From positions 290,618-354,617 of the forward strand of contig NZ_LMSS01000002.1 of assembly GCF_001429605.1 (NCBI RefSeq): 64,000 nucleotides of DNA, in the 5' to 3' direction. The stretch comes from Phycicoccus sp. Soil802 (lineage in GTDB: Bacteria; Actinomycetota; Actinomycetes; Actinomycetales; Dermatophilaceae). Every line of letters starts with the position of its first letter. The first letter of the stretch is position 1. Positions 18,334-50,359 of this stretch are shown in pieces. Below the pieces are notes generated by a model. The model searched no databases, was not told the DNA's origin, and saw only the letters and a list, made by a program, of their open reading frames with translations. The translations under genes were made by a program, and so were the position numbers.

Positions 18334-20682
18334 CTAGGCGACGGGCTGCGGCTCGCGCGGCTCGGGGTCGGGAGTGGGCTCGGTCGGCTCGGGCTCGGTG
18401 GGCTGGCCGTCGTCGCGGCGCTTGACCGCGGCGAGCAGCATCTGGGCGACGTCGACGACCTCGACGTCCGCGCCCTTGCCCTCGGACTGGGCGGCGGTCA
18501 GGCCGTCGGACATCATCACCCGGCAGAAGGGGCAGCCGATCGCGATCCGCTCGGCGCCGGTGCCGATGGCTTCCTCGGTGCGGTTGGTGTTGATCCGGGT
18601 GCCCAGCTTCTCCTCCATCCACATCCGCGCCCCGCCGGCACCGCAGCAGAACGACTTCTCCTTGGTGCGCTCCATCTCGCGCAGCTCGACCCCGGGCAGG
18701 GCGCCGATCAGCTCGCGCGGCGGGGCGTAGACACCGTTGTGCCGGCCGAGGTAGCAGGGGTCGTGGTAGGTCACCGTCTCGGCGGTGGAGGCGACGTCCT
18801 TGTTCGAGGACTTGCCGGGCACGTCGGCGGGACGGGCGACCGGGACGAGCTTCTTCTCGCGGACCAGCCGGTTGAGCAGCTGGGTGTGGTGGACCACCTC
18901 GTACTTGCCGCCGAGCTGCGGGTACTCGTTCTTGATGGTGTTGAAGCAGTGCGCGCAGGTGACGACGATCTTGGTGGCGCCGACCTCGTTGAGGGTCTCG
19001 ACGTTCTGGGCGGCGAGCATCTGGAAGAGGAACTCGTTACCGGCCCGTCGCGCGGAGTCACCGGTGCAGGACTCACCGTCGCCGAGGATCGCGAACGACA
19101 CCCCGGCCTGGTCGAGCAGCTCCGCGACGGCGCGGGTGGTCTTCTTGGCGCGGTCCTCGTAGGCGCCGGCGCAGCCGACCCAGAACAGGTAGTCGACGTC
19201 GTCGGCGGACTCGACGTCCTGGCCGAGGATCTTCACCGGGAACGGCAGGTCCTTGGCCCAGTCGAGGCGGGCGCGGGCGGCCATGCCCCACGGGTTGCCC
19301 TTGTTCTCGAGGTTCTTGAACAGGCCGTTCAGCTCGTTCGGGAACGCCGACTCGATGAGGTTCTGGTAGCGGCGCATGTCGACGATCGCGTCGACGTGCT
19401 CGATGTCGACCGGGCACTGCTCGACGCAGGCGCCACAGGTGGTGCAGGACCACAGCACGTCCTGGTCGATCACGGCGTCGGGTCCGTGCGGGTTGTAGGC
19501 CGCCAGCGGGTTGGTGATGTCGTAGCCGGTGTCGCCGATCAGCGGCACCTCGGCCAGCGCAGCAGCGCCCTCGCCGAGACCCGAGCGGTCACCCTCGGTG
19601 GCGAGCAGCCACGGCGCCTTGGCGTGCGCGTGGTCGCGCAGCGCCATCACGAGCAGCTTGGGCGACAGCGGCTTGTCGGTGTTCCACGCGGGGCACTGGG
19701 ACTGGCAGCGGCCGCACTCGGTGCAGGTGGTGAAGTCGAGCAGGCCCTTCCAGGTGAAGTCCTCGACCTTGCCGACCCCGAGCGCGGCGTCCTCGTCGAG
19801 GTCCTCGATGTTCTCGAAGTCGACCGGCTCGCCCTTGACCATGAGCGGCTGGAGCTCGCCGAGCGAGGTGCGGCCGTCGGCGTGCCGCTTGAGGAAGATG
19901 TTGAAGAAGGCCAGGAAGCGGTGCCACGCGACCCCCATCGTCGGCTGCAGCGAGATGGTGATCATCCACGCGAACGAGATGAGGATCTTCACCGCGGCGA
20001 CGACCACGATGACGTCCTCGAGGCGCGACACCGACCAGCCCTTGACCATCGCGCCGAGCCAGCCGGTCAGCGGGTAGTGCAGCGCGTCGGCGTGACCGAC
20101 GCCGGAGAAGCCCTGGGTGCCGCCGTTGAAGTCGAGCGCGTACTCCAGCGCCCGCAGGGTGATGATGCAGATCGTGACGCCGAGGATGGTCAGCTCCACG
20201 TAGTAGGCCTGCCAGAAGGTCGACCCGAAGAACCGCGACCGCCGACCACCCTCGCCGGCGGCCGAGCGCGGATGGTTCTTCTGCCGGATCACCATCAGCG
20301 CGACGATGCCCACCAGGCCGGTCCACGCGAAGAACTCGGTGACCCACTCGTAGAGGAAGAAGTGCCCGATCACCGGCAGCGTGAAGTCCGCCTTGACCAG
20401 CTGTCCGAACGCATTCAGCAGGGTGAAGAACAGCACCCCGAAGCTGATCATCGTGAACCAGTGCGCCACCGCGACGACCGGCAGCCGCGACATCCGCGTG
20501 TGGCCGAGGAACTCGCGCAGCAGCGTCACGGTGCGGGTGCCCTTGTCGCCGGTGCGGGTGGCATCGGGCTGGCCGAGGCGGAAGACGGCGAGGAACTCAC
20601 CGATCACCCGCGCGAACAAGGCGATACCCGTGAGGGCGACGGCGAGGCACACGACGAGCGCGACGATCTGGAGCGCAGACAT
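18334..20682 (-). CDS. membrane-bound iron-sulfur reductase, Rv0338c/HdrD-like
   Basis: 782 residues from ATG 20682. The N-terminus has about five membrane helices (1-30, 70-92, 105-135, 160-182, 222-245). Two 4Fe-4S ferredoxin motifs follow, Cys 320/323/326/330 and 413/416/419/423, then two CCG-type heterodisulfide-reductase domains (FWVGCAGAYE; FCCGAGGARMW). The plan matches the actinobacterial Fe-S reductase family of M. tuberculosis Rv0338c. Electron donor and acceptor are not known. The tail is Pro/Glu/Thr-rich. A longer open frame continues upstream but runs antisense to cysK and is not coding. Confidence 0.88.
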   Translation of the reverse strand: MSALQIVALVVCLAVALTGIALFARVIGEFLAVFRLGQPDATRTGDKGTRTVTLLREFLGHTRMSRLPVVAVAHWFTMISFGVLFFTLLNAFGQLVKADFTLPVIGHFFLYEWVTEFFAWTGLVGIVALMVIRQKNHPRSAAGEGGRRSRFFGSTFWQAYYVELTILGVTICIITLRALEYALDFNGGTQGFSGVGHADALHYPLTGWLGAMVKGWSVSRLEDVIVVVAAVKILISFAWMITISLQPTMGVAWHRFLAFFNIFLKRHADGRTSLGELQPLMVKGEPVDFENIEDLDEDAALGVGKVEDFTWKGLLDFTTCTECGRCQSQCPAWNTDKPLSPKLLVMALRDHAHAKAPWLLATEGDRSGLGEGAAALAEVPLIGDTGYDITNPLAAYNPHGPDAVIDQDVLWSCTTCGACVEQCPVDIEHVDAIVDMRRYQNLIESAFPNELNGLFKNLENKGNPWGMAARARLDWAKDLPFPVKILGQDVESADDVDYLFWVGCAGAYEDRAKKTTRAVAELLDQAGVSFAILGDGESCTGDSARRAGNEFLFQMLAAQNVETLNEVGATKIVVTCAHCFNTIKNEYPQLGGKYEVVHHTQLLNRLVREKKLVPVARPADVPGKSSNKDVASTAETVTYHDPCYLGRHNGVYAPPRELIGALPGVELREMERTKEKSFCCGAGGARMWMEEKLGTRINTNRTEEAIGTGAERIAIGCPFCRVMMSDGLTAAQSEGKGADVEVVDVAQMLLAAVKRRDDGQPTEPEPTEPTPDPEPREPQPVA

Positions 20683-20693
20683 GATCGTCACTC

Positions 20694-20718
20694 TACTGGC
20701 CAGTAAGCGCCTGCTTAC
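20694..20718. promoter_or_regulatory. overlapping palindromes upstream of the Fe-S reductase gene, putative operator
   Basis: TACTGGCCAGTA (20694-20705) is a perfect 12-bp palindrome and is immediately followed by GTAAGC-4-GCTTAC (20703-20718). They lie 12-36 bp upstream of the ATG at 20682, where a TetR-type repressor would occlude the promoter. Confidence 0.5.
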
Positions 20719-20874
20719 CGTCTGTGTGAGGAGCATCAAAGGTGAGTCGCGGCCCCCCTGCCAGGCCGGGGTATGCCGCGTGGCTGCCTCCCAGGACCCC
20801 GCGGCGTCCACCGGGTGCCCGCCTGCCGGGCGTTCGTTGCCAAGGTGCATAACGATCTGTTGGAATATGCATAA

Positions 20875-20897
20875 CGTCGGGTTCGCTGAACCCGACG
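20875..20897 (+). promoter_or_regulatory. leader hairpin upstream of cysK
   Basis: A perfect 10-bp stem (CGTCGGGTTC / GAACCCGACG) with a 3-base loop, 58 bp before the cysK ATG. Two TGCATAACG direct repeats (at about 20846 and 20868) lie just upstream. No T run follows, so an operator or mRNA structure is more likely than a terminator. Confidence 0.4.
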
Positions 20898-20955
20898 ACA
20901 GCCCACGACCTCGCGCCACGGCTCGCCCGCGGCATACCGACGCAAGGAAGCTCGC

Positions 20956-21882
20956 ATGCCCATCTATGACGATGTCACCAAGCTCATCGGCAACACCCCG
21001 CTGGTGCGGATCAACCGGCTGATCGACAGCGACGCGATCGTCGCCGGGAAGCTCGAGTTCTACAACCCGGCCTCCTCGGTCAAGGACCGCATCGGCGTCT
21101 CGATCATCGACGCCGCCGAGGCGGCCGGGGCGCTCAAGCCCGGTGGCACCATCGTCGAGGCGACGTCCGGCAACACCGGGATCGCGCTGGCCATGGTCGG
21201 CGCCGCCCGCGGCTACAACGTCGTCCTCACCATGCCGGAGACCATGTCGAAGGAGCGGCGTGCGCTGCTCCGCGCCTACGGCGCCGAGCTGATCCTGACC
21301 GAGGGCGCCCTGGGCATGAAGGGTGCGGTGGCCAAGTCGGAGGAGGTCGCGGCCGAGCGCGGCGGCATCCTCGCCAAGCAGTTCGCCAACGAGGCGAACC
21401 CCGAGATCCACCGCAAGACCACCGCGGAGGAGATCTGGAAGGACACCGACGGCCAGGTCGACATCGTCATCGCGGGGATCGGCACCGGCGGCACCATCAC
21501 CGGCGTCGGTCAGGTCCTGAAGTCGCGCAAGCCCGGGGTGCAGATCATCGCGGTGGAGCCCGAGGAGTCGCCGATCCTCAACGGCGGACAGCCCGGCCCG
21601 CACAAGATCCAGGGCATCGGCGCGAACTTCGTCCCCGAGATCCTCGACCGCGACATCTACGACGAGGTCATCGACATCAACGCCGAGACGGCAGTCGAGT
21701 GGGCCAAGCGGGCCGCCAAGGAGGAGGGCCTGCTGGTGGGCATCTCGTCGGGCGCCGCGCTCGCGGCGGCCAACCAGGTCGCGACCCGCCCCGAGAACGC
21801 CGGCAAGACCATCGTCGTCATCATCCCGTCGTTCGGTGAGCGCTACCTGTCGACGATCCTCTTCTCCGACCTGCTCGACTGA
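20956..21882 (+). CDS. cysK: O-acetylserine sulfhydrylase (cysteine synthase A)
   Basis: 308 residues. The PLP lysine lies in SSVKDRIG (about residue 42); the substrate loop TSGNTG and the phosphate-binding GTGGT are intact. It makes cysteine from O-acetylserine and sulfide. cysE, which supplies O-acetylserine, follows 64 bp downstream on the same strand, so the two make a short pathway operon. Confidence 0.96.
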
Positions 21883-21946
21883 CCTCGACTGACCATGGCC
21901 GAGCGCACCTGACCCCGCCACAACCCTTCTGCCGCAACGGAACCCG

Positions 21947-22546
21947 ATGACCCTCGCTCTCTACGCCAGGCGCGCACGCAATCGCATCGTCGACGACCTC
22001 GACGCCGCGATCGCGCGCGACCCGGCCGCGACCTCGCGGGTCGACGTGGCGCTGAACGCCCCTGGGCTGCACGCCATCTGGGCGTACCGGTTCGCCCACC
22101 GGCTGTGGCCGCGCGGCGGGTGGACCAAGCCGGTGGCGAGGGTCGTCATGACCTTCGTGCGCTCGGTGACCGGCGTCGAGATCCACCCCGGCGCGGTGAT
22201 CGGTCACCGGTTCTTCATCGACCACGGCATGGGCGTCGTGATCGGCGAGACCGCCGAGGTCGGTGACGACGTGATGCTCTACCACGGCGTCACCCTCGGC
22301 GGCCGGTCGATGCAGAGGGTCAAGCGACACCCCACGGTGGGCTCCCGCGTCACCATCGGCGCGGGCGCCCGCATCCTCGGGCCGGTCCACATCGGCGACG
22401 ACGTGCAGATCGGCGCGAACTCGGTCGTGGTCAAGGACATCCCGGCCGGGGCGGTCGCCACCGGGATCCCCGCGACAGTCCGGTTCCCGCACGGGACCGA
22501 GGACCCCTACGAGGCGATGTTCAAGGACCCGGCCCTCTGGATCTGA
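21947..22546 (+). CDS. cysE: serine O-acetyltransferase
   Basis: 199 residues with the left-handed beta-helix hexapeptide repeats ([18 protein letters not shown] and following) and the catalytic His in [15 protein letters not shown]. Length is that of the short actinobacterial CysE. It acetylates serine for CysK. The last ~40 bp overlap the 3' end of the convergent TPR-CHAT gene. Confidence 0.95.
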
Positions 22547-25077
22547 GAGGGGTCGGGTCGCCAGTCGGTGCCGAAGAGGCAGAAGGCCCCCGCGGCCGGG
22601 TGCTCTGCGAGGGTTGCGGCCAGGGCCTCGGAGGCGGTCCGACCTGACGCGAGCTGCTGGTGGTAGGCCACCATCGCCTGCTCCGCCACGACATCTGACA
22701 CCGGCGCGACCGGGGCGACGACGCTGCGCACCCCGAGCGCCAGCAGGGCGGCGGTGAGACCGAGCGGTTCGTCGCCCGGTCGGGGGTCGAGCCGGCCGAC
22801 GTCGCAGGCCGAGAGCACGACGTGCGGCGCGGTGGCCGGTCGCGGGAGCTCGTGGGCGAAGACCGGACCGTCGGCCATGTGCAGCGAGGAGAACCACGGG
22901 CTCTGCGGCTCGTGGGCGCCATGCGCGGCGATGTGCACCACGCCACCACTGACCAGGGCGTCCCGCACCGACTGGGCCGTCGCGGCCGAGTGTCCCTCGG
23001 TGTCCGCGCCGACCGACCGCCAGGTCTGGGCGACGGCGGCGGCCTCGGCCCCCGCTCGGAGCAGCCGGGGGCCGGTCAGGGTCGTGACGGCGAGCGCACC
23101 GTCGATCCTCGGGCCGGGGGAGAGCAGGGGGGTGGCCCATCGGGTCACCGACGGGGCCACCGTGACGGGGCGACCCGCGAGGCTGGGCAGCATGCCCCAC
23201 GGCACCGCCATCAGGGTGCGGCCCGGGACGACCACGACCGGCCCGTCGCCGAGGCGGAGGTCGGAGAGCAGCCGCTGGTCGAGCGCTGCGACGGAGCCGG
23301 CGACCGCGCGTCCCACGGCGGCCTCCATCGTCGGGTTGGTGCTGGCGAAGGCGTGCGCCCGCAGGTCGCGGGTGAGCCGGTCGGCCAGGGCGGCGACCTC
23401 CGCGGCCGGGCCAATGTGGTGCAGCCGGCTGCCCTGCTCGCCGACGACCAGGACGTACTCCTCGCCTTCCTGAGCCACCCACACGAGGGCCTGTTCGCCG
23501 CGGGCCCGGAGCAGGTCGCGGGTGGTGCCGTGCCCGAGCGGAGCGCCCGCCGCCGCGACGTCGTCCTGCTCCACGCGCGTCCAGTCGAGTCGGCTGACCT
23601 CCCACTCGAGGCGTGCCGCGCGGGCGCGCTGCCGGGCACCCTCCTGGCCGGTGGTCACGCCCTCGCGGCGGGCCTGGCGCAGCTCGGCCAGCAGCTCCGC
23701 CGACCGCTGGTCCTGCGGTGCGGAGAGCAGCGGGAGGCGGTGGGACACCGCCCGCCAGCGCTCGACCGCGTCGAAGACCCGGGGCGCCGACCCGCTCGCC
23801 AGCGCGTCGTTGACGTCGAAGTCGGCGAGCCGCCGACCGTGCAGGGCCAGGGCGGACCGGATCTCGACGCTCTGGCTCGGCGCCTGCCGCTCCGTCAACC
23901 GGTTCATCGCGGCACGTACCGCGCGCCGCGACTTGACGGTGTTGCCCTGTGCCGCAGCGACTTTCGCGACAAGGAGCCGGTCGTGCATGTCGGCGGCGAA
24001 GCCCTGGCGCACCCGGCCGCTGAGTCTCTGCACGGCATACCCGGCGTCGTCGACCTGCCCCCTCAACAACAGGGCTTCGACGTGGACCCGCGCCGCGAGG
24101 CGTTCGTCGGGCGTGACCGGCCGGGCGACGTCGAGCCACGGCGCGAGCGTGCGGCCGAGGCCACGCGGCACGACTCCCTCGGCGAGGGAGACCGAGGCGC
24201 GCAGCAGGGCGGCACTGCGCTGGCGCTCGGTGGCTCCGCGGGCGCGGAAGGCCGCCACCGCGGCGTCGAGGTGCTCACGCGCGGTCGAGAGGTCGTCGCG
24301 CAGCATCGCCGTCGTGGCGAGGTCGAGCCGGAGGTCGGCCTCCTCGAGGCGGTGGCCGTCACGCCGCGTCTCGTCGAGGGCGCGGCTGAGGGTCTCGCGG
24401 GCCTGGTCGAGCAGCCCGACCTCCAGCAGCACCAGGGCCAGGTCGTGCTGCGCCCGGACCCGACCGACCGGCACCGACATCTCGTCGGCCTCGCGCATCA
24501 GCTCGATCGCCTGGGGGAGCCGGCCCGCGTAGTACTCCAGGCACCCGAGGTTGTGGCGGACCTTGAACTCCTGCTCGGCCAGCCCGTGCTCGACGCAGAC
24601 TCGCAGGGCGGTCTCCAGGTCGGCTCGCGCCGGGCCGAGCTCGAGCAGCGACAGGTGGGCCAGCCCGCCGTTGATGCGGGACGCCACCTCCTCGCCAGGA
24701 GTCAGGAGGGAGTGTCCGTCACCCACCTTGTCGAGGGCGGCCAGGGCCGAGCGCCAGTCCTGGCAGGAGACGTGCACCACCGCCTCCTGGATCCAGCTCA
24801 GCGCCCGGAGCCGGGGCGAGTCGTGCTGGGCCCGCGACTCCTGCAGCATCTCGAGGGCCTGGTCGAGCCCGTGCAAGGCCAGGGTCGGCCAGGCCAGGGT
24901 GATGAGCAGCCGGGCGCGGGTCGGCACCCGGTCGGGCTCGTCGAGGTCGTCGGACAGCGTCAGGGCGCGACGGAGCGAGCGCTCGGCGTCGCGGAACCTG
25001 CCGATCTCGTTGAGGTTCCGCGCTCGGGCCAAGAGCTCGGCGACCTGGCGGTCAGCAACCTCGATGTCGTACCTCAG
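22507..25077 (-). CDS. TPR-CHAT protein (caspase-like protease)
   Basis: About 856 residues, last gene of a four-gene operon. Residues ~1-500 are helical TPR-like repeats ([40 protein letters not shown]). The C-terminus is a CHAT domain with the catalytic dyad intact: His in HIAAHG (about 719) and Cys in VVLSACDVG (about 758). CHAT proteases include TPR-CHAT/Csx29 of type III-E CRISPR. No ATG or GTG occurs near the obvious N-terminus: candidates are CTG 25077, overlapping the upstream stop as CTGA, TTG 25032, or a distant ATG 25257 inside the upstream gene. I give the coupled CTG; the start is uncertain. Confidence 0.85.
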
Positions 25078-25574
25078 ATCTCGATGGCTGGCGTGATGAC
25101 GGGGCGGCTCTGCGGGTCGTCGAGCCGGCGCATGACGAGGTGGACGAGCCCGCGTTGCACCGAGGTGAACGTGAACCGACCCGCGTCGTCCGTCGTGGTC
25201 TCCTGGGTGCGCGAGCGCTCCCGCAGCTCGATGTGCGTCGGTCCGGTGGTCACCCACCCGCTCAGCCGGGCGTTGGTCCCCTCGACCAGCTCGATCGTGA
25301 TCATCGCGCTGAGCTGCTCGCTGGAGAAGGTGATCGTGCCGGCCCGGTCGTAGTCGGTCGAGCGGACCCCGGCCAGCTCGGGCGTGGTCGTGGTGATCTC
25401 AGCGATCTCGGCCTCCAGCGCGGCGACCGACATCGCGAACTTGGCGCGCTCGGCGAGGTCGCTCGGCACCGGGTCGCTCGCCTGCAGGATGGACCGGAGG
25501 GTCGCCAGGGCCCGCAGGTCCTGCTCGTCGATGGGCTCTGCCGCGAGGGCGTCCAGGTCGTGTTCGGCGGTCAT
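25074..25574 (-). CDS. small soluble protein between sigma factor and TPR-CHAT, candidate anti-sigma factor or protease substrate
   Basis: 166 residues, ATG overlapping the sigma stop (ATGA). Residues ~1-65 are acidic and helical (DLDALAAEPIDEQDLRALAT; AMSVAALEAEIAEI). Residues ~75-166 look like a beta-sandwich of carboxypeptidase-regulatory type, with a GRFTFTSVQRG strand pair. No membrane segment and no zinc HxxxCxxC motif, so it is not a classical ZAS anti-sigma. Its position directly after the ECF sigma gene and before the protease suggests it binds one or both. I do not recognise a named family. Confidence 0.65.
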   Translation of the reverse strand: MTAEHDLDALAAEPIDEQDLRALATLRSILQASDPVPSDLAERAKFAMSVAALEAEIAEITTTTPELAGVRSTDYDRAGTITFSSEQLSAMITIELVEGTNARLSGWVTTGPTHIELRERSRTQETTTDDAGRFTFTSVQRGLVHLVMRRLDDPQSRPVITPAIEI

Positions 25575-26164
25575 GACGTCGCCCACCCGGGGTCGCCGAG
25601 CAGGGCCAGCTTGAGCTTGGCGAGGCACCGACCCCGGGTCGGTCCGATGCTGCCGACCGGCATGCCCAGCGCATCGGCGACCTGGACGTAGTCGGGCCGT
25701 TCGGCGAGGGCGATGACCCGGAGCAGCTGCTGGCAGCGCTCGGGCAGGTCCTTGAAGTGGCGCCAGAGCAGACCCTGCTCCTGGCTGCGGACCACGGCGT
25801 CGGCGGGCTCGTCGCCCGTCGTCGGGACCTCGGGCATCGCATCGCCGATGTCCTCGCGCACGTCCTCGCGCCGGGACTTCTTCGACACCGCCCACGCCTC
25901 GCGGCGGGTGGTCGTGAGCAGCCACTTCAGGACGCCCCGGGGGTCGGTGATTCCCGATGCGTGCTGCACGAGTGACAGCCAGGTGTTCTGGACGACGTCC
26001 TCGGCCTGCGCGGCCGAGAGCCCCTGGGCGCGGGCGGTGTGCCACAGCAGCGAGGTCGTGCTGTCGACCAGCTCGGACATCCCCTCGGGACGGCCGTCGC
26101 GGTAGTCGCTGAACGCGTTGGCGGCCAGCTCGGCGAGGCTGCGGGTGCCTCCTTCTGCGTGCAT
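25571..26164 (-). CDS. ECF-type RNA polymerase sigma factor
   Basis: 197 residues. The sigma-2 region (LLWHTARAQGLSAAQAEDVVQNTWL, about 40-66, then LKWLLTTTRREAW) and the sigma-4 region (LPERCQQLLRVIAL...VADALGMPVGSIGPTRGRCLAKLK) are both present and no other domain is. ATG 26164 overlaps the subtilisin stop by one base; GTG 26167 is an equally placed alternative. It should transcribe genes set free when its inhibitor is lost. The three partner genes are co-translated with it. Confidence 0.88.
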   Translation of the reverse strand: MHAEGGTRSLAELAANAFSDYRDGRPEGMSELVDSTTSLLWHTARAQGLSAAQAEDVVQNTWLSLVQHASGITDPRGVLKWLLTTTRREAWAVSKKSRREDVREDIGDAMPEVPTTGDEPADAVVRSQEQGLLWRHFKDLPERCQQLLRVIALAERPDYVQVADALGMPVGSIGPTRGRCLAKLKLALLGDPGWATS

Positions 26165-27789
26165 CACCGCTCTCCCTCCTTGGCGGCCCGGCGCCCCTTG
26201 AGCGAGGTGCGCTCCGCGATCGCGGCGCGGACCCGGCCGAGCAGGTCGAGCCTGGTCTTCACGTCAGCGTCGTCGGAGCACTCGTGCTCCACCATGGTCG
26301 CCGCGACGTCCCCGGCGTAGGCCGGCGCCGCGAACGACGTGCCGCTCCACAGCCCGAACCCGCTCGAGTAGTCGTCAGGGTCGCACGAGCCCCGGGCCGG
26401 GTCGTGTCCCGCTGGCTGGGCGATCACCGGCCGCAGGCTGCCGTCGAAGGTCGTCGGCATGGTGCTGACCACGGCCGTGCCGCAGCGGTAGGCCGTCACC
26501 CAGGACCCGGTGTTGGAGTAGATCGACACCGTGTGGCCGTCGGGGTTGTGCGACCCGACGCTGGTGATCGGGTGGTCGTAGCCGCCCGCAACGGCGAACG
26601 CCGCGGGGTAGAACTCCCGGTTGGTGCCGCCGTTCCCTGCCGCGGCGACCACCGCCACCCCGGTGCTGGCGAGCGCCCGCAGCACGCTGGAGAAGGCCGG
26701 CTCGTCGTCGAAGGCGCCCGGGGTCTCGTGGTAGTAGCCCAGCGAGAGCGACAGCACGTCGACGGCCGGCCCCTTGCCCCTGCCGGAGTGGGCCAGCAGC
26801 TGGCGCACGTAGAGCAGGCTCAGCGTCTCCACGAGGAACGCCTCGTCGGTGACGCCGTCACCGTGCATCACCGGGACGATCATCAGGACGGCATCGGGGC
26901 AGTGCTGGCGCACCACGCCCGCGATGAAGGTGCCGTGCCCGGCCAGCGGGTCGAGCACGCCGTTGACGCGGTCGAGGGTGCACCCGGTCAGCTCGGGGTC
27001 GTCGGCGGGGGTGAACCGCAGACCGATCGGCAACCCGTCGACCTCCACGTCACGGATGACGCGGTCGGCGAACCACGGGTGCTGGCCCAGCCCGGTGTCG
27101 AGCAGGGCCACGACGGGCCCCGACTTCTGGGTGGGCGCGGGCGCCGGCGCGGCCCAGACCACGGGCAGGCGCGGCGACGGTCCACCGCCGGGCATCGCGA
27201 CCTCGTCGTCACCGACTCCGGAGCCGTAGCCGACCCCGGACCCGTAACCCACGCCCGAGCCGTAGCCGACTCCTGAGCCGTAACCCACCCCTGAGCCGTA
27301 ACCCACGCCCGAGCCGTAGCCGGCCGCGGTGACGATGTGGCTGAGGCTGACGGCCTTGGCCGACTCCGGGTCCTCGGCGCGCAAGGTCTGGAGGATCAGC
27401 CAGGCGTCGGGAGCGACGACCGGCCGGTTCGGGAGCGGCCGGAACTCGACCATCGTCGAGACCGCCTGGTCGACCTGCGCGCCGAGCTCGTACTGCTCCA
27501 CCAACGCCTCGAACCGCTCGTCGCGGCGCGTCTCGACCGAGTAGCCCAGCCGCTCGGCGATCGCGGACAACGAGCTGATCGGACCCTGCGCCGAACGGGT
27601 GGCGAGGCCACGCACGAGCAGTCGGTTGCCGGCATACAAGGTCGGCTCCAGGGCGTCGTCACCGTCGAGGCGCACCGCCTTCGCGGGGTCGAGCACGCGC
27701 ACGTCGAGGCGCCGGGCCGCCGAGCGCGGGATCGCGACCGAGGGCGTGGGCCCCGGCCCTGACGGCGGCGGGGGAGTCGATGCGGCCAT
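26164..27789 (-). CDS. S8 subtilisin-like peptidase, apparently cytoplasmic, with (GYGSGV)6 linker
   Basis: 541 residues from ATG 27789 (AGGAG five bases upstream). There is no signal peptide or membrane segment. Residues ~1-155 form an N-terminal domain, residues 157-192 are six perfect GYGSGV repeats, and the peptidase follows with Asp231 (LLDTGLG), His285 (GHGTFIAG), the oxyanion Asn386 (AAGNGG) and Ser485 (GTSFAAPA). All catalytic residues are present. First gene of the operon with the ECF sigma factor, small protein and TPR-CHAT, so it may be a second protease of the same signalling module. Confidence 0.9.
   Translation of the reverse strand: MAASTPPPPSGPGPTPSVAIPRSAARRLDVRVLDPAKAVRLDGDDALEPTLYAGNRLLVRGLATRSAQGPISSLSAIAERLGYSVETRRDERFEALVEQYELGAQVDQAVSTMVEFRPLPNRPVVAPDAWLILQTLRAEDPESAKAVSLSHIVTAAGYGSGVGYGSGVGYGSGVGYGSGVGYGSGVGYGSGVGDDEVAMPGGGPSPRLPVVWAAPAPAPTQKSGPVVALLDTGLGQHPWFADRVIRDVEVDGLPIGLRFTPADDPELTGCTLDRVNGVLDPLAGHGTFIAGVVRQHCPDAVLMIVPVMHGDGVTDEAFLVETLSLLYVRQLLAHSGRGKGPAVDVLSLSLGYYHETPGAFDDEPAFSSVLRALASTGVAVVAAAGNGGTNREFYPAAFAVAGGYDHPITSVGSHNPDGHTVSIYSNTGSWVTAYRCGTAVVSTMPTTFDGSLRPVIAQPAGHDPARGSCDPDDYSSGFGLWSGTSFAAPAYAGDVAATMVEHECSDDADVKTRLDLLGRVRAAIAERTSLKGRRAAKEGER
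27214..27321 (-). repeat. in-frame 18-bp tandem repeat (six copies) in the subtilisin gene
   Basis: Six 18-bp units, each encoding GYGSGV, differ only at synonymous or near-synonymous bases. Copy number could change by slippage without breaking the frame, altering the spacing between the N-terminal and peptidase domains. Confidence 0.9.
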
Positions 27790-28017
27790 TGATTCTCCTG
27801 AGGTGGTGCCGACCACGAAGTGCAGTGTTCAGCGTAGTGAGGGATCGCTTCATCTGACAGGAGAAGCCGACGGGTCGGGTGATACCGGACAGCCCCGAGA
27901 TTCTGGTCCGGAAAAAACTTTCGGCGGGGATGTATCAGGGTCCGGCGCCCCCGCTCTTGTCCACTGTCAGACCTGGTCGGGGGACAAGGTGGGCACAACG
28001 AAAGGAAGCCTCGTGTC

Positions 28018-28149
28018 ATGCAGGATCCGTCGCAGGGGGCGACGGGTCAGGCAGATGGAGGGCCGCTGGGCACAGGGGTGCCAGCGGACCGGACGGCAGG
28101 TCGTGGGGGCGTGCTGCCGTCCCGCCCCTCGGGGCGCGTCGCCGAGTAG
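28018..28149 (+). CDS. possible small Gly-rich protein
   Basis: A 43-residue frame (ATG, GGAAG nine bases upstream) rich in Gly, Arg and Pro, ending TAG. A strong hairpin with a T-rich tail follows at 28241-28272, which would suit the end of a plus-strand transcript. No homology is recognised. It may instead be a leader or noncoding transcript upstream of the palindromic repeats. Confidence 0.3.
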   Translation: MQDPSQGATGQADGGPLGTGVPADRTAGRGGVLPSRPSGRVAE

Positions 28150-28240
28150 GTCAGGTCGAGGAAGGTGCTGGTCAGGGGTTCCCAGCACGCGCCAGGCCCG
28201 ACCTTCTCGGCGACGCCGTTGAGCCCAGCAACACAGGAAC

Positions 28241-28272
28241 GGCACGGCATACAAGACCTCGTATGCCGTGCC
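28241..28272 (+). terminator. 12-bp perfect hairpin built from the GTATGCCG motif
   Basis: GGCACGGCATAC and its exact complement flank an 8-base loop. The stem contains the window-wide GTATGCCG word on both arms and is followed by GTTTCGT. Confidence 0.65.
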
Positions 28273-28295
28273 GTTTCGTGCTGCGCGCCCGTCCC

Positions 28296-28384
28296 ACCTT
28301 TATCGGGTCTAGGGAGAAGTGTCCGCTTCACCCGGGAAAGGTTTCCGGGTGAAGCCGCCCTTTGTCCCAGGACCCGATAAAGCT
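28296..28384. repeat. 89-bp nested palindrome, copy 1
   Basis: The outer arms CTTTATCGGGTC / GACCCGATAAAG enclose an unrelated inner hairpin with an 11-bp stem (28325-28335 with 28345-28355). Both share one symmetry axis at 28340. See copy 2 at 28822: same outer arms and same total length, but a different inner sequence. Confidence 0.8.
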
Positions 28385-28396
28385 GAGGTCTCGTGG

Positions 28397-28729
28397 TCAG
28401 GGGAGCTTGCCGGGGCCCGGGCCGAACCCGGTCGTGTCGGCGTGCAGCCGACCGTCGGTCCCCCGGTGCAGGGTCTCGGGGAGATCCTCACCGGTGAAGC
28501 GCTCGCGGGCGCTGGCACCCGCGGTCTTCGCCGCGTCGCCGAGCTTGGCCGCGACGACGGGCGCCTGCTCCTTGACCGCCTGCTTCACGGTGTCGACCCG
28601 CGCCTGCACGGGCTCGCTGCCCCAGACGCGGTCGGCCTGGGCCTTGATCTGCTGGTAGCGCTTCTGACCGGCCTTCGCCCCGAGCACGTAGCCCGCAGCG
28701 AGACCGGCGAGGAACGAGAGCTTTGCCAT
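28397..28729 (-). CDS. YtxH-like small membrane-associated protein
   Basis: 110 residues from ATG 28729 (AAGGA 9 bases upstream). A short N-terminal hydrophobic segment (LSFLAGLAAGYVLGAKAG, about 4-21) is followed by an amphipathic helical region and a Gly/Pro-rich tail. This fits the YtxH/general-stress type of small proteins; the function is unknown. It is flanked by the two 89-bp palindromes. Confidence 0.65.
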   Translation of the reverse strand: MAKLSFLAGLAAGYVLGAKAGQKRYQQIKAQADRVWGSEPVQARVDTVKQAVKEQAPVVAAKLGDAAKTAGASARERFTGEDLPETLHRGTDGRLHADTTGFGPGPGKLP

Positions 28730-28821
28730 GGTTCGCATCCTTCGGTCGGGGCTTCGACCCTAACCCATGATTCGCACAAACCCGCTGGTCAGCGACCCGC
28801 CCGAGCTTTCGCCCCATCCCC

Positions 28822-28910
28822 AGCTTTATCGGGTCTAGCACCAAGGTTGACCCTCGCTCGGGTGATGAAGTCGAGCGAGGGTCAACGTTCCGGCATGACC
28901 CGATAAAGCT
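28822..28910. repeat. 89-bp nested palindrome, copy 2
   Basis: A perfect 14-bp outer inverted repeat AGCTTTATCGGGTC with its complement at 28897-28910, and an inner 15-bp perfect stem (28846-28860 with 28872-28886), all centred on 28866. Only the outer arms match copy 1. Confidence 0.85.
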
Positions 28911-28921
28911 GGGACTCTGGG

Positions 28922-29006
28922 CGGCGGGTGTGGGATTTGAACCCACGAGAGGTTGCCCTCTGGTCGCTTTCAAGGCGACTGCACTAGGCCACTATGCGAA
29001 CCCGCC
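28922..29006 (-). tRNA. tRNA-Ser(UGA)
   Basis: The minus strand gives acceptor GGCGGGT/ACCCGCC, D-arm, anticodon stem GTCGC/GCGAC with loop CTTGAAA (anticodon TGA), a long class II variable arm (AGAGGGCAACCTCT) and T-arm. CCA is not encoded. Length 85. Confidence 0.95.
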
Positions 29007-29264
29007 CGGCGTGCGCGCCAACTATTCCAGACCTTCCCATCCCGCCGGGAGCGAGTACCGTGGAGGGAGGGCGACGACACGCCACGAAGCAGGTGGTCGC
29101 AAAATCGATTGCGGTCCGAAATGTGTTGAATCGCAGCATAGTTCGGGCCGCGACCCAACCAATTCGACGCCACTCATACGCGAATTGAAGGATCCTGAAG
29201 TCACGGCCTCGCGACTAGCGTTCGCGGTGGGGGGAAATGAGACGTCCGCTTTCGGGCGGCGGGC
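29007..29264. other. intergenic region upstream of tRNA-Ser, no gene seen
   Basis: Between tRNA-Ser and the MocR-gene terminator. The base composition is noticeably more AT-rich than elsewhere. GGAATAGT on the minus strand, just before the tRNA, resembles a -10 element. No plausible coding frame with a start site was found. Confidence 0.4.
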
Positions 29265-29297
29265 CGAAGGCCGGGCAACCCTGCAGCCCGGCCTTCG
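29265..29297 (-). terminator. terminator of the MocR gene
   Basis: A perfect 12-bp stem (CGAAGGCCGGGC and complement) with a 9-base loop, 28 bp beyond the stop of the MocR-type gene. Confidence 0.8.
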
Positions 29298-29324
29298 CGC
29301 CGTCCCGGCTCCGGACCTGGCAGC

Positions 29325-30686
29325 TCAGCGTGCGCGGCCCTGCCGGCCCCCGGCCAGCGCCGCGTCGGCCAGCGCGTCCGCGACCGCGTCGAGGTCCCCG
29401 GTCGCGGCCCCCACCGTGACCCGCACGTGCCCGCCGGTGCCCCCGACCTCGGCAGCGCCAAGCCGGAAGGGCGCCCCAGCCGCCACCCCGATCCCCCTGC
29501 TGGCGAGCCGGACGACCGCGGCGGTCTCGTCGTGCACCGGCACCCAGATGTTGATCCCCTCGGTCCCGGGCACCACGACACCACGCGCGGCCAGGGCGTC
29601 GACCACGTGCGCCCGCCGCGCGGCATACGTGACGGAGGCCCGGGCCACCTCGGTGCGGGCGGTCTCGCTGGTGAGCAGCCCGAGGAGCACCTGCTGCAGC
29701 AGCCGGCTCGACCAGCCCTGCCCCAGCTCGCGGCGGGCGGTCAGCGCCCGGTGCAGCGCCGCCGGAGCACTGAGCGCCGCGAGCCGCAGGTCCGGTCCGT
29801 GCGACTTCGAGAACGACCGGATGTATGCCGTGTGCTCGGGTCGCCAGCGACCCAGGCTCACGAGCGCCTCCGAGGACAGCCCGGCGGCCGAGTCGTCCTC
29901 CACCACCAGGGTGTCGGTGCCGTCGAGCAGGGCTGCGATGGCCTCGGCCCGTGCGGTGGTCATGGTGACGCCGACCGGGTTCTGGGCGCGGGGCTGGAGG
30001 AAGACGGCGGCCACCGGCTCGCGCAGGGCGTCCTCGAGCGCGCTGAGCTCGAGTCCCTCGTCGTCGAGCGGCACGCCGACGAGCTGCACACCGACGGACT
30101 CGAGGAGGTCGACCAGCGGCGGGAACCCAGGGTCCTCCACCACGACGCGGTCACCGAACCGCAGCGTCGTCCGCACGATGAGGTCCATCGCGTCCATCGC
30201 CCCGTCGACGACGGCCAGGTTGGCTGCGGCATACGGCCAGTCCTCGCGAAGGGTGTCCGCGAGGGCCGGCAGCACCGGGTCGTCGAGGTAGCTGCCGGTC
30301 GTCGGGGCCGAGGTGAGCTGCGCGAGCACCGCGCCGAGCGACGGCAGCAGCGCGGGATCGGGCACCCCCGTGGACAGGTCGAGGGTGAAGGCCGCCTCGT
30401 GGCGAAGGGCCTGGCGGTAGCGCCCTCCCGTGGCCCCGCCCTGGTCGAGGATGGTGGTGCCCCGCCGCCCGTCGGCGTGGACGGCGCCCGACCGCGCGAG
30501 CAGCGACCAGGCCGCGCTCACCGTGGTTGGCGACAGCGCCAGCTGCGCCGCGACCGTCCGGATCGGGGGCAGCCGGTCGCCCGCCACCAGCTCGCCGTCC
30601 CGGATCGCCGCCGAGACGGCATGCGCGAGGCCCTTCGCGGTGGGGTGGTCGAGGCGGTGCTCGAGGGCGGAGAGGACAGCGGTCAT
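29325..30686 (-). CDS. MocR/GntR-type regulator with aminotransferase domain
   Basis: 453 residues from ATG 30686 (ATG 30698 possible; no clear RBS, possibly leaderless). The N-terminal GntR winged helix (PPIRTVAAQLALSPTTVSAAWSLLARSG) is joined to a fold-type I aminotransferase-like domain. The usual PLP lysine should lie in the SFSKSHGPDLR segment (about residue 292), and NPVGVT resembles the aspartate-aminotransferase signature. MocR proteins sense PLP or amino-substrate adducts. It is divergent from mmsA and the catabolic genes, so it is probably their regulator. Confidence 0.88.
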   Translation of the reverse strand: MTAVLSALEHRLDHPTAKGLAHAVSAAIRDGELVAGDRLPPIRTVAAQLALSPTTVSAAWSLLARSGAVHADGRRGTTILDQGGATGGRYRQALRHEAAFTLDLSTGVPDPALLPSLGAVLAQLTSAPTTGSYLDDPVLPALADTLREDWPYAAANLAVVDGAMDAMDLIVRTTLRFGDRVVVEDPGFPPLVDLLESVGVQLVGVPLDDEGLELSALEDALREPVAAVFLQPRAQNPVGVTMTTARAEAIAALLDGTDTLVVEDDSAAGLSSEALVSLGRWRPEHTAYIRSFSKSHGPDLRLAALSAPAALHRALTARRELGQGWSSRLLQQVLLGLLTSETARTEVARASVTYAARRAHVVDALAARGVVVPGTEGINIWVPVHDETAAVVRLASRGIGVAAGAPFRLGAAEVGGTGGHVRVTVGAATGDLDAVADALADAALAGGRQGRAR

Positions 30687-30687
30687 G

Positions 30688-30722
30688 TTTTGTACCATAG
30701 CAATAGTGAGATTGTGTTACCA
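30688..30722. promoter_or_regulatory. direct repeats in the MocR-mmsA divergent promoter
   Basis: TTTTGTACCA (30688-30697) and TTGTGTTACCA (30712-30722) share TACCA ends 25 bp apart in the 60-bp gap. MocR regulators typically bind direct repeats, so this is the likely operator. Confidence 0.45.
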
Positions 30723-30746
30723 ATCGGTGGTGCGTATGGTTGGGGC

Positions 30747-32237
30747 ATGACGACGCGCATCTCCCACTGGATCGACGGCCGCCTCCACGAGGGCGGCTCC
30801 GGACGCTCGGCGCCGGTGTACAACCCCGCCACCGGGGAGGTCACCGCCGAGGTCGACCTGGCCTCCGTCGAGGAGCTCGACGCCGCGGTCCAGACCGCGG
30901 TCGTGGCGGCCCGCGAGTGGCGGCACACCTCGCTTTCGCGGCGCGCTGCCGTCCTCTTCGCGTTCCGCGAGCTCCTGCACCAGCGCACCCCGGAGCTCGC
31001 CGCCATCATCACGGCCGAGCACGGCAAGGTGCTCTCCGACGCCGCGGGCGAGATCGCGCGTGGTCTCGAGAACGTCGAGTTCGCGACCGGCGTGCCGAAC
31101 CTCCTCAAGGGCGGGTTCAGCGAGCAGGCCGCGACCGGGGTCGACGTCTACAACATCCGGCAGCCGCTCGGCGTCGTCGCCGGCATCACGCCGTTCAACT
31201 TCCCCGCCATGGTGCCGCTGTGGATGTGCGCCAACGCGATCGCCTGCGGCAACGCCTTCATCCTCAAGCCCAGCGAGAAGGACCCGTCCGCCGCGCTCTT
31301 CCTCGCCCAGCTGTGGAAGGAGGCCGGCCTGCCCGACGGCGTCTTCACCGTCGTCCACGGTGACAAGGTCGCCGTCGACGCGATCCTCGACCACCCCGCC
31401 GTCGCGGCGGTCAGCTTCGTCGGCTCCACGCCGATCGCCAGGTACATCTACGAGCGCGGCACCGCGAACGGCAAGCGCGTCCAGGCCCTCGGTGGCGCCA
31501 AGAACCACGCCCTCGTCCTGCCGGACGCCGACATCGAAATGGCTGCCGACGCGGTCGTCTCCGCCGCCTACGGCTCAGCCGGCGAGCGGTGCATGGCGCT
31601 GTCGGTGGCCGTCGCGGTCGGTGACGTCGCCCAGCCGCTGGTCGACGCGATCGCCGCACGCCTGCCCAAGCTCACCGTCGGCGCCGGGACCGACCCCGAC
31701 TCCGACATGGGTCCCCTGATCACCGCGGAGCACCGCGACAAGGTTGCCGGCTACGTCGACGCCGGCGAGTCCGCCGGTGCCGCGGTCGTCGTCGACGGGC
31801 GGACCGGCGACCACCCCGAGCAGGGCTTCTTCCTCGGGACGACGCTGCTCGACCACGTCACCCCCGAGATGACCGTCTACACCGACGAGATCTTCGGTCC
31901 GGTGCTGTCGGTCGTCCGCGTCGACACCTACGAGGCCGGGCTCGACCTCATCAACTCGAACCAGTACGCGAACGGCACGGCGATCTTCACCCGCGACGGT
32001 GGGGCCGCCCGCCAGTTCCAGTACGACGTCGAGGTCGGCATGGTCGGCATCAACGTGCCCATCCCCGTGCCGGTGGCCTACTACTCCTTCGGTGGCTGGA
32101 AGGACTCCCTCTTCGGCGACACCCACATGTACGGCCCCGAGGGCATCAACTTCTACACCCGGGGCAAGGTCGTCACGCAGCGCTGGCCCGACCCGGCGAC
32201 GTCCAGCGTCGACCTCGGTTTCCCGCGCACCCGCTGA
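30747..32237 (+). CDS. mmsA: methylmalonate-semialdehyde dehydrogenase (CoA-acylating)
   Basis: 496 residues, ALDH fold: GSTPIARYIYERG NAD-binding turn, LGGAKNH, and the catalytic Cys in SAGERCMA (about 283). The residues fit the CoA-acylating MMSDH branch (PFNFPAMVPLWM; IPVPVAYYSFGG). The enzyme oxidises methylmalonate or malonate semialdehyde to propionyl- or acetyl-CoA. Together with the following aminotransferase it suggests beta-alanine or related omega-amino-acid breakdown. Confidence 0.93.
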   Translation: MTTRISHWIDGRLHEGGSGRSAPVYNPATGEVTAEVDLASVEELDAAVQTAVVAAREWRHTSLSRRAAVLFAFRELLHQRTPELAAIITAEHGKVLSDAAGEIARGLENVEFATGVPNLLKGGFSEQAATGVDVYNIRQPLGVVAGITPFNFPAMVPLWMCANAIACGNAFILKPSEKDPSAALFLAQLWKEAGLPDGVFTVVHGDKVAVDAILDHPAVAAVSFVGSTPIARYIYERGTANGKRVQALGGAKNHALVLPDADIEMAADAVVSAAYGSAGERCMALSVAVAVGDVAQPLVDAIAARLPKLTVGAGTDPDSDMGPLITAEHRDKVAGYVDAGESAGAAVVVDGRTGDHPEQGFFLGTTLLDHVTPEMTVYTDEIFGPVLSVVRVDTYEAGLDLINSNQYANGTAIFTRDGGAARQFQYDVEVGMVGINVPIPVPVAYYSFGGWKDSLFGDTHMYGPEGINFYTRGKVVTQRWPDPATSSVDLGFPRTR

Positions 32238-48744: not shown

Positions 48745-48763
48745 GACTGCGGTCCCGTGCTTT

Positions 48764-48879
48764 CGGCCAATTGGCCGACTTCCCGCGCGCAGAGGCGGGT
48801 TGGTGGCGTGGTCCCGGCCAATTGGCCGACTTCCCGCGCGCAGCGGCTGATTGGTGCCGTGTTTTCGGCCAATTGGCCG
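48764..48879. repeat. three copies of a palindrome at exact 51-bp spacing
   Basis: CGGCCAATTGGCCG, a perfect 14-bp palindrome, starts at 48764, 48815 and 48866. The 51-bp units share most of their other bases. It lies between the GT39 and histidine-kinase genes. A CRISPR array is unlikely: there are no variable spacers. Confidence 0.85.
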
Positions 48880-48895
48880 AGTTCTTCGCGGGCGC

Positions 48896-50359
48896 TCAGC
48901 CCCGCGGCAGGGCGACCGTGAAGGTCGTGTCGCCGGGACTGGAGGACAGCTCGACGTTGCCCCCATGTGACTTGGCGACCGCGTCGACGATCGAGAGCCC
49001 GAGGCCACTCGAGCCGGACGCCCGGTTGCGGGAGTCATCGCCGCGGGTGAAACGCTGGAAGACGTTGCGCTGCAACGACTCCGGCACGCCCGGACCATCG
49101 TCCGAGACGCTGAGCCTGACCCACTGACCGTCGGGCTTGACCGACATGACGACGCGGGTGCCCGCCGGGGTGTGGGTGCGGGCGTTCGCGAGGAGGTTCG
49201 CGACGACCTGGTGCAGCCGGGCGGAGTCGCCGGTCACCTCGACCGGCTGGTCGGGCAGGTCGAGCTCCCAGCGGTGGTCGGGGGAGGCGGCATGGGCGTC
49301 ACTGACCGCATCCATCGCGAGCAGCGACAGGTCGACGGGCTCGCGGTCCAGCGGCCGGCCGGCGTCGAGGCGGGCCAGCAGCAGGAGGTCCTCGACCAGG
49401 CCCTGCATGCGCAACGCCTCGGACTCGACGCGCGACAGCGCGTGGGTGACCGACGCCGGCACCGGCTCGCGCTCGCGACGGGACAGCTCGGCATACCCGC
49501 GGATGGAGGCGAGGGGAGTACGCAGCTCGTGCGACGCGTCGGCGACGAACTGGCGCACCCGCTGCTCGCTGTCGTGCCGTGACTGCAGGGCGCCCTCGAC
49601 GTTGTCGAGCATGTTGTTGAGCGCGAGGCCGACCTGGCCGACCTCGGTGCGCGGGTCGGTGTCGGCTGGGGGGATCCGCTCGGCGAGCGCAACCGCTCCG
49701 GAGTCGAGCTTGAGTGTGGAGACCTGGGTGGCCATGTGGGCGACCCGCTGCAGCGGCGCGAGGTTGCGACGCACCAGCCACAGGCCGCCCGCCGAGACGA
49801 TGACGAACCCGACGATCGTGCCGCCGACCACGAGGGTGATCATCGTGACGACGGTCTCGTTGATGCTCTCGACCGGCAGGCCGCTGATGACGGTGTCACC
49901 GTCCACCGCCCGCCCGGCCGCGACCCGGTAGTCGCCGAGACCTGGCACGTCGACGGTCTTGGGGGTCGACCCGATGCTGGCTGCGTTGAGGGCGTCGATC
50001 TGTGCGGCGGTCAGGGTGCCGGAGGTGCGGTCGTGCTCCACCCGGCTCTGCGTGGCGACGCCGTTGCTGAGCCGCAGGAAGAGCGACTCACCCGCGGCGC
50101 CGGGCGGGCCACTCGGACCGGTGCCGTCGCCGCCGGGTCGTCCCCGGTCGGGGCCGCCGGCCCGCACGAGGCTGGCGGTGACGCCCTCGTCGAGCTGGCG
50201 GACCAGGCTGTGGTGCAGCAGCAGGACGGTCAGCGCCCCTGACGCCAGCGTGACGACCAGGAAGAGCCCGACGACGGTGGCCACGAGCTTGCTGCTCAGC
50301 GACCACGCTGCGGGGTCGAGGCGCGAGCGGGCCGAGCCGACCGCTGGGGCAGGGCTCAT
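48896..50359 (-). CDS. two-component sensor histidine kinase
   Basis: 487 residues. Two membrane helices (about 26-48 and 185-208) frame an exported sensor region with no recognised domain. HAMP, the H-box HELRTPLASIRGYAEL (His about 285) and the ATPase N, G1 and G2 boxes (NLLANA, DDGPGVP, GLGLSIV) are all intact. ATG overlaps the response-regulator stop (ATGA), so the pair is coupled. Likely controls envelope glycosylation genes nearby. Confidence 0.92.
   Translation of the reverse strand: MSPAPAVGSARSRLDPAAWSLSSKLVATVVGLFLVVTLASGALTVLLLHHSLVRQLDEGVTASLVRAGGPDRGRPGGDGTGPSGPPGAAGESLFLRLSNGVATQSRVEHDRTSGTLTAAQIDALNAASIGSTPKTVDVPGLGDYRVAAGRAVDGDTVISGLPVESINETVVTMITLVVGGTIVGFVIVSAGGLWLVRRNLAPLQRVAHMATQVSTLKLDSGAVALAERIPPADTDPRTEVGQVGLALNNMLDNVEGALQSRHDSEQRVRQFVADASHELRTPLASIRGYAELSRREREPVPASVTHALSRVESEALRMQGLVEDLLLLARLDAGRPLDREPVDLSLLAMDAVSDAHAASPDHRWELDLPDQPVEVTGDSARLHQVVANLLANARTHTPAGTRVVMSVKPDGQWVRLSVSDDGPGVPESLQRNVFQRFTRGDDSRNRASGSSGLGLSIVDAVAKSHGGNVELSSSPGDTTFTVALPRG

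Follow-up and report, generated by a model that had tools for sequence, protein, structure and literature searches.

In the CalpL-CalpT-CalpS set of type III CRISPR (clustered regularly interspaced short palindromic repeats) systems, which joins a Lon protease, an anti-sigma factor and a sigma factor, the protease reportedly frees the sigma factor, and CalpL is said to be a Lon/SAVED protease that senses cyclic oligoadenylate. In type III-E systems (Craspase), the tetratricopeptide repeat (TPR)-CHAT protease Csx29 cleaves Csx30, the inhibitor of an extracytoplasmic function (ECF) sigma factor, according to the passages of PMC10028731 that deal with this output. The same passages name RseA/DegS and RsiW, in which a sigma inhibitor is cut stepwise by proteases, and the portion of PMC8195603 on EACC2-caspase conflict systems places a caspase-clan protease, a TPR protein and an ECF sigma factor in one neighbourhood. 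Here we analyse a 64,000-nt stretch of Phycicoccus sp. Soil802 (contig NZ_LMSS01000002.1, positions 290,618 to 354,617; hereafter the window), in which four genes on the minus strand, in the order S8 subtilase, ECF sigma factor, a 166-aa protein (here called SMALL) and TPR-CHAT protease, form a module, as an initial annotation of the stretch had recognised.

The module, the co-occurrence of its parts, a promoter signature, the structure of a divergent RNA, the subtilase pro-domain and repeats and an invariant arginine in SMALL were computed directly. We read the module as a CRISPR-free switch in which CHAT-led proteolysis would release the ECF sigma factor from SMALL, an account that we hold to be probable, if only just. 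The extent first given to the module (22507-27789) was too small, as it left out a divergent promoter pair (27856-27961) and a structured RNA (about 27965-28268, plus strand); what is new here, and had been overlooked, is the promoter signature together with the divergent RNA and further candidate targets, among them small proteins. None of the open-licence PMC papers listed in our searches described the four-gene module, although an earlier mention is possible.

The parallel with Craspase drawn in the initial annotation is apt as logic, as far as the relevant passages of PMC10028731 describe that system. Both encode a TPR-CHAT protease, an ECF sigma factor and a sigma partner together and have sigma promoters, predicted ones in our module, at their own locus. 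In our proposal the sigma factor would, as in Craspase, be released by proteolysis, so that the module may work like the Craspase output module. It is not Craspase, however, because no CRISPR array was found in the window and the TPR-CHAT protein reaches only 13.2 bits against the NCBIfam Csx29 model NF041237, for which the cut-off is 300. The array search, for direct repeats of at least 22 nt within 150 nt, agrees with the initial annotation and covered the 64-kb window, the rest of the genome not having been searched for CRISPR or Cas, nor either part for Cas7-11; the direct-repeat scan gave only an 18-bp coding repeat in the subtilase gene and a three-copy 51-nt repeat at 48751. For SMALL, neither Pfam nor NCBIfam nor PADLOC gave a match to Csx30, the presence of a Csx30 model in these libraries being unchecked. 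Unlike Craspase, the module includes a subtilisin zymogen, and its promoter signature is followed by a structured RNA.

The other precedents differ in their parts. CalpL-CalpT-CalpS likewise links a protease to a sigma factor, but the protease families of our module are different. The stepwise proteolysis proposed here would resemble that of RseA/DegS and RsiW, as these are presented in PMC10028731, whereas those inhibitors have a membrane segment and none is seen in SMALL by eye. Compared with the EACC2-caspase systems in the portion of PMC8195603 on them, the module fuses CHAT to TPR and adds a subtilisin and a small sigma partner, and the associated domains named there are absent from the Pfam matches of its four proteins.

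Results

The subtilase gene (26164-27789, minus strand, as are all four) encodes a zymogen of 541 aa made up of a pro-domain, disordered repeats and a catalytic domain, and is followed by the genes for the 198-aa ECF sigma factor (25571-26167), SMALL (25074-25574) and the TPR-CHAT cysteine protease (22507 to about 25065). The overlaps of 1-4 bp first described for this operon hold for the S8/sigma (GTGA) and sigma/SMALL (ATGA) junctions, at 4 bp each, but not for the SMALL/CHAT junction. There, no in-frame ATG, GTG or TTG was found, the first being a TTG 45 nt into the translated frame, and a 1-4 bp overlap is therefore not established. A possible start of the TPR-CHAT gene is the ATC at 25063-25065, and a non-standard start of this kind would suggest controlled translation. 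By eye, CATCGAGG is preceded by a GAGG/GGGG-like site in the window and in 8 of 13 other loci compared, and seven congeners, as well as one more relative, share the ATC candidate with its ribosome site.

In Pfam, the TPR-CHAT protein matches CHAT (PF12770, E 4.6e-26, 92.4 bits against a cut-off of 24) and TPR_12 (E 6.9e-12). Its catalytic His and Cys, H714 and C753 of alignment A12 and residues 719 and 758 of the translated frame, are invariant in 11 rows, so the dyad is intact as first annotated, and domain and dyad together assign the protein, by sequence, to the clan CD cysteine proteases.

The subtilase matches Peptidase_S8 (E 2.9e-15, Pfam), and its D231, H285, N386 and S485 do not vary across 61 alignment rows. 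The triad of D231, H285 and S485 is thus as intact as had been claimed, and with a pro-domain on the catalytic domain the protein belongs to the S8 subtilases. The claim that it has no export signal agrees with an N-terminus in which no hydrophobic stretch is seen (by eye; no signal-peptide program was run). Residues of about 47-155 (27325-27651) are spanned by alignments to pro-subtilisin and PCSK9 and, in the structure model, show the beta-alpha-beta-beta-alpha-beta elements of a pro-domain with two extra helices; this domain family is named I9. A novel sensor had been suspected in the subtilisin N-domain, for which we see no evidence, since that domain is an ordinary subtilisin pro-domain.

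Six exact GYGSGV repeats (27214-27321) lie between pro-domain and catalytic domain. The underlying 18-bp array matches only 79% in DNA, the six units differing only synonymously, and the repeat region (residues 159-204) has a predicted local distance difference test score below 50. Across the S8 repeats (84 of 111 S8 entries compared; 99 of 110 stored S8 entries distinct), 877 of 2445 compared codon pairs differ despite exact protein units, and mere DNA slippage was for this reason judged an unlikely origin. The repeats are absent from ten Promicromonospora S8 proteins. As a side observation, a trypsin-like protein (L059:3927-5471) and the subtilase (L059:5699-7411) of Knoellia sinensis both carry a GWGDGI repeat, which among the loci with a divergent trypsin-like gene is found in the trypsin-like protein of this species alone. 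Similarly, a 107-aa gene after CHAT in a Cellulosimicrobium locus (L084:13142-13465) has LPTPYSTPL repeats that resemble the PYSTPL repeats found in the subtilases of its relatives.

Among anti-sigma factors, CnrY is short, helical and membrane-linked. The sigma factor of the module matches Sigma70_r2 (PF04542, E 8.9e-7, Pfam) and TIGR02937 (E 2.1e-14, 53.5 bits against a cut-off of 42.9, residues 30-189) and has ECF regions 2 and 4, region 4 by profile only. Its best solved match, from the sigma alignment, is CnrH of the CnrH/CnrY complex (PDB 4cxf, E 9.7e-8), and the modelled region 2 of a homologue (locus L101) matches ECF structures in a structure comparison. SMALL gave only CarboxypepD_reg in Pfam, below the cut-off. 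Its alignment and model show N-terminal helices, a linker with Arg71 and a C-terminal beta domain; in the L101 homologue the beta domain is modelled confidently and the helices at low confidence only. From this architecture and the genomic pairing described below, we infer that SMALL inhibits the ECF sigma factor. The column of Arg71 (codon 25362-25364) is R in 120 of 120 entries and lies beside a linker of variable length, and Arg71 is probably the site at which CHAT would cleave SMALL.

The initial annotation had staked its proposal on conservation of the four-gene order in other genomes, and the order is conserved. Searching 58 genomes (own included) for SMALL gave 28 matches in 25 genomes. 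Of the 27 matches outside the own genome, 20 were retrieved with a wider stretch around them. Each of the 20 has the complete four-gene set, 19 with the order of the window and one as sigma-SMALL-S8-CHAT. When named genomes were scanned using the SMALL alignment and one peptide pattern, 76 loci were obtained, 75 of them with all four genes (counting partial genes at contig ends) and the remaining one stopping at a contig end; 45 have S8 first and 31 have sigma first. The loci are mutually related, 11 of the 20 fetched relatives recur among the 76, and the counts include one genome from two collections, the 119 stored SMALL entries amounting to 106 distinct ones. The module adjoins cysK/cysE in 14 of the 20 fetched relatives. 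Among seven sigma-first loci, the gap between rplA and rplJ (recognised by eye) holds the module in five (L074, L084, L104, L105 and L115), where in L084 and L104 it is preceded by one or two additional genes, and in L159 and L160 the module lies outside rplA/rplJ.

Across 396 Actinomycetota genomes, SMALL occurs in 27, the TPR-CHAT family (E 1e-40) in 46 and both in 24 (Fisher p 1.1e-22, like all our p-values uncorrected for phylogeny); scoring for the TPR-CHAT family was limited to the two top first-look candidates of each genome. In 20 distant stretches from the 27 genomes with SMALL, sigma adjoins SMALL in 19 and CHAT lies within the stretch in 13. Sigma stays beside SMALL also in most of the distant loci without a nearby CHAT, as expected of a sigma partner. 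In the genomes of the seven loci without CHAT (one of which, L163, is at a contig end), the family occurs elsewhere in six at E values of at most 1e-80, the exception being G438, and in four of these six an S8 homologue lies next to the unlinked CHAT on the other strand. Sigma-SMALL and CHAT-S8 hence look like two units that co-occur even when unlinked.

Two congeners depart from the other members of the genus at the same cysK/cysE site: in L043 and L044 (G009 and G002), a very different version of the module is present, with a CHAT 36-38% identical to that of the window, against 57-83% in seven other congeners, and a cysK at 92%. This suggests allele replacement or fast divergence.

GTATCA precedes the operon within 320 nt upstream of the first gene in 61 of 82 loci, compared with a mean of 1.7 and a maximum of 8 in shuffles, and it is the commonest of all hexamers in these regions. 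The signature of the window is GTATCA-N16-CTCYTGTC, present as GTATCA-N16-CTCCTGTC pointing into the operon (27856-27885, minus strand) and as GTATCA-N16-CTCTTGTC pointing away from it (27932-27961, plus strand). These two, at the divergent pair, are the only matches to GTATCA-N15-18-CTCYT in the window, where 0.02 are expected. TCYT follows GTATCA by 17 nt within the genus and, beyond it, in many loci with either gene order, and many S8-first loci, like the window, have a second GTATCA copy pointing away from the operon.

In 11 genomes of the genus, the strict pattern occurs 38 times and a reversed control 4 times, and 19 of the 38 matches lie at the module locus in 10 genomes. The remaining genome, G005, has no SMALL, no CHAT family, no RNA and no promoter match (a one-mismatch version was also run) and only one partial S8 match; the one genus genome without the system is also without the signature. 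Position, conservation and the absence in G005 suggest that the module's own sigma factor probably reads the signature.

The regulon was at first read as the own locus only, a reading that was dropped because extra matches proved orthologous. Of the 19 strict matches elsewhere, 15 are readable and 4 gave no locus. In ten of the 15, a start codon equipped with a ribosome site follows 31-53 nt after the end of the match; nine of these ten fall into three orthologous groups. The candidate targets are a 62-aa AHHHPxV protein (G003, G004, G006 and G009), a 77-108-aa protein that appears to have a membrane segment (G006, G007 and G008), a 482/483-aa protein (G001 and G009) and a 485-aa protein (G003). 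No such gene was found at the other five (L179, L198, L201, L202 and L222), of which L201 is the only extra strict match of the own genome. The own genome does have a 61-aa AHHHPHV protein (G000:C1:588587-588769), its closest homologue of the 62-aa protein, with GTATCA-N17-CTCCTTG 47 nt before the start, and the same one-base-longer form precedes the G010 copy of the small membrane protein, which the own genome has only as a fragmentary match. Two further homologues in the own genome are without the site, and most of the distant homologues of the 62-aa protein that were checked have no good site.

Behind the outward promoter, the segment at about 27965-28268 (plus strand; conserved core 28056-28217) folds at -177.7 kcal/mol (z -7.35), a stability reached by none of 100 shuffles. 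Its reverse strand is less stable (-160.9 kcal/mol, z -6.99), and the promoter strand is the more stable one in each of nine congener sequences. The consensus fold of the nine congeners reaches -125.5 kcal/mol, compared with -91.8 (standard deviation 4.7) for column shuffles, none of 200 being as low. Seventeen of 55 pairs have changed on both sides, which none of 500 shuffles reach, and the further pair types were reached in 6 of 500. In the alignment from which the structure was itself derived, 90.8% of cells pair, compared with at most 51.2% when the structure is slid.

A crude gene finder gave no divergent gene ahead of a convergent one downstream of this promoter. A coding gene was considered, as an open reading frame of 62-70 aa is open in most congeners, and was rejected by the substitution pattern: relative to the three nearest sequences, changes at the three codon positions number 35, 20 and 19, most at the first, with 13 synonymous and 51 non-synonymous codons. 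When 20000-31000 was scanned against Rfam, nothing matched 27965-28268 up to E 5. Of 27 genomes, nine match the RNA model R1, each at the module locus; all nine belong to the genus and are the ones used to build the model, so only the 18 negatives inform: G005, G002 with its divergent module and 16 genomes of other genera. G002 (L044) gives a partial match (24.8 bits, E 0.05), and R1 has weaker reverse-strand matches at the same place. The 24 divergent leaders are not uniform, with folding z-scores from 0.1 to -5.7, and that of the window is only -3.0 on the 240 nt just after the -10 element. We do not claim a general RNA across genera.

Discussion

In the switch that we propose, SMALL would at rest hold the ECF sigma factor through its helices and beta domain. 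A trigger, most likely sensed via the TPR part, would activate the CHAT protease, which would cut the exposed linker of SMALL, probably after Arg71, and the weakened inhibitor would let go of the sigma factor. The pro-subtilisin would be the second protease in this order, produced as a zymogen in inhibited form and most likely serving to complete or amplify the destruction of the inhibitor, and its aromatic repeats would be a recognition or cleavage element. The free sigma factor would then read GTATCA-N16/17-CTCYT promoters at its own operon, giving positive feedback, at the divergent RNA and at a few small-protein genes.

Several observations speak against this account or parts of it. Arg71 is invariant also where there is no CHAT gene nearby and may therefore be structural. 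SMALL occurs without the CHAT family at E 1e-40 in G322, G352 and G438, and without a sigma factor detected alongside in one copy in L157, two copies in L158 and the only copy in L165. The upstream 320 nt lack GTATCA in 21 of 82 loci (ten of Promicromonospora, five of Knoellia, L066, L167 and L171-L174), and loci of the Terrabacter and Humibacillus type have ACTCA or TCTG at the -10 place. The module sits at fixed chromosomal places beside housekeeping genes, and a PADLOC scan of its four proteins gave only weak hits (subtilase 3.4e-5, BovA 0.01) and no known anti-phage system, so a mobile defence system is not favoured. The analysis found no sensor. Finally, a sigma/SMALL co-model was obtained for L101, where the two genes lie in one frame separated by a TGA and were read as one chain with TGA as W. 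With alignment A4, its predicted template modelling score was 0.34, with sigma region 4 and the SMALL helices at low confidence and no interface. A4 aligned well, and the structure comparison of its model covered sigma region 2 and the beta domain only; A5, A9 and A10 were discarded, as they placed SMALL rows on the sigma half, as was A3, which was similar by identities. The co-model is evidence neither for nor against docking.

The roles of the two proteases could also be exchanged, with the subtilisin destroying the inhibitor and CHAT activating the subtilisin by cutting the hexapeptide repeats between its pro-domain and catalytic domain. The subtilase was modelled with the pro-domain in place, and repeats that are disordered and exact as protein despite differing codons are what an accessible multi-site linker would look like. 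An S8 homologue beside CHAT in 4 of the 6 genomes where CHAT is away from sigma/SMALL points the same way. However, pro-subtilisins normally process themselves, the ten Promicromonospora S8 proteins are free of repeats, and the invariant Arg lies in SMALL and not in the repeats; we regard this exchange as unlikely, if worth keeping in view.

Other explanations dispense with proteolytic release, or with the sigma factor as reader of the signature. SMALL could be a ligand-sensing or accessory sigma partner and the two proteases outputs of the sigma regulon, since both share the autoregulated operon of sigma. All four genes of the window indeed lie behind the promoter signature, the beta domain of SMALL could bind a ligand, and sigma and/or SMALL occur without CHAT in 7 of 20 distant loci. 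Against this stand the invariant basic residue within an otherwise variable linker, the co-occurrence with the CHAT family at genome level and the precedent for a protease-sigma link described in the output passages of PMC10028731, which together make it distinctly improbable to us. Still less probable, in our estimate, is that GTATCA belongs to a different regulator and that the RNA and small proteins are co-regulated with the operon without being sigma targets. The divergent GTATCA/TGATAC pairs can be read as an operator, but the element has two parts with a promoter-like start-to-start spacing of 23 nt, is placed 31-53 nt ahead of the start codons of other genes and is mostly single outside the module locus and in sigma-first loci.

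If CHAT-led release of sigma is correct, it suggests that Craspase logic may exist outside CRISPR, in ordinary actinobacterial chromosomes and in many cases at one and the same site next to housekeeping genes, and type III-E may then have borrowed a pre-existing switch. The parts of the model are named, and it predicts a cleavage residue, a promoter and a small set of candidate targets (the structured RNA and tiny proteins), with which the role of TPR-CHAT proteins outside CRISPR becomes directly testable. A long shot is that the divergent RNA, made only when sigma is free, would bind TPR-CHAT or the sigma/inhibitor pair and set or reset protease activity. If true, a caspase-like protease would be gated by an RNA, as would a sigma factor, with no CRISPR, Cas7-11 or guide involved.

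Additional observations

At other loci, the divergent gene encodes a trypsin-like protease: in five Knoellia loci, in Nocardioides gansuensis (L061) and in L155. Where the loci were read further, an APH-family kinase follows it (L059, by eye; L061 and L155, Pfam), and the divergent operon of L061 also has a HopA1-family protein and that of L059 a LanC-like protein. In the divergent operons at L059:722-5471, L061:2334-5573 and L155:12471-15151, the tail of the trypsin-like protease is rich in Thr/Cys repeats of the VTRPxxC kind. HopA1 together with APH presumably resembles class V lanthipeptide enzymes, and the divergent operons of the three loci possibly encode a lanthipeptide-type enzyme set that acts on the protease tail.

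Nine Promicromonospora loci (L105, L110-L114, L117, L118 and L121) have two tandem TPR-CHAT genes together with a repeat-free S8 and no GTATCA within 320 nt upstream. In the window itself, away from the module, a 51-nt unit occurs three times in tandem at 48751-48903, with the palindrome CGGCCAATTGGCCG in each copy.

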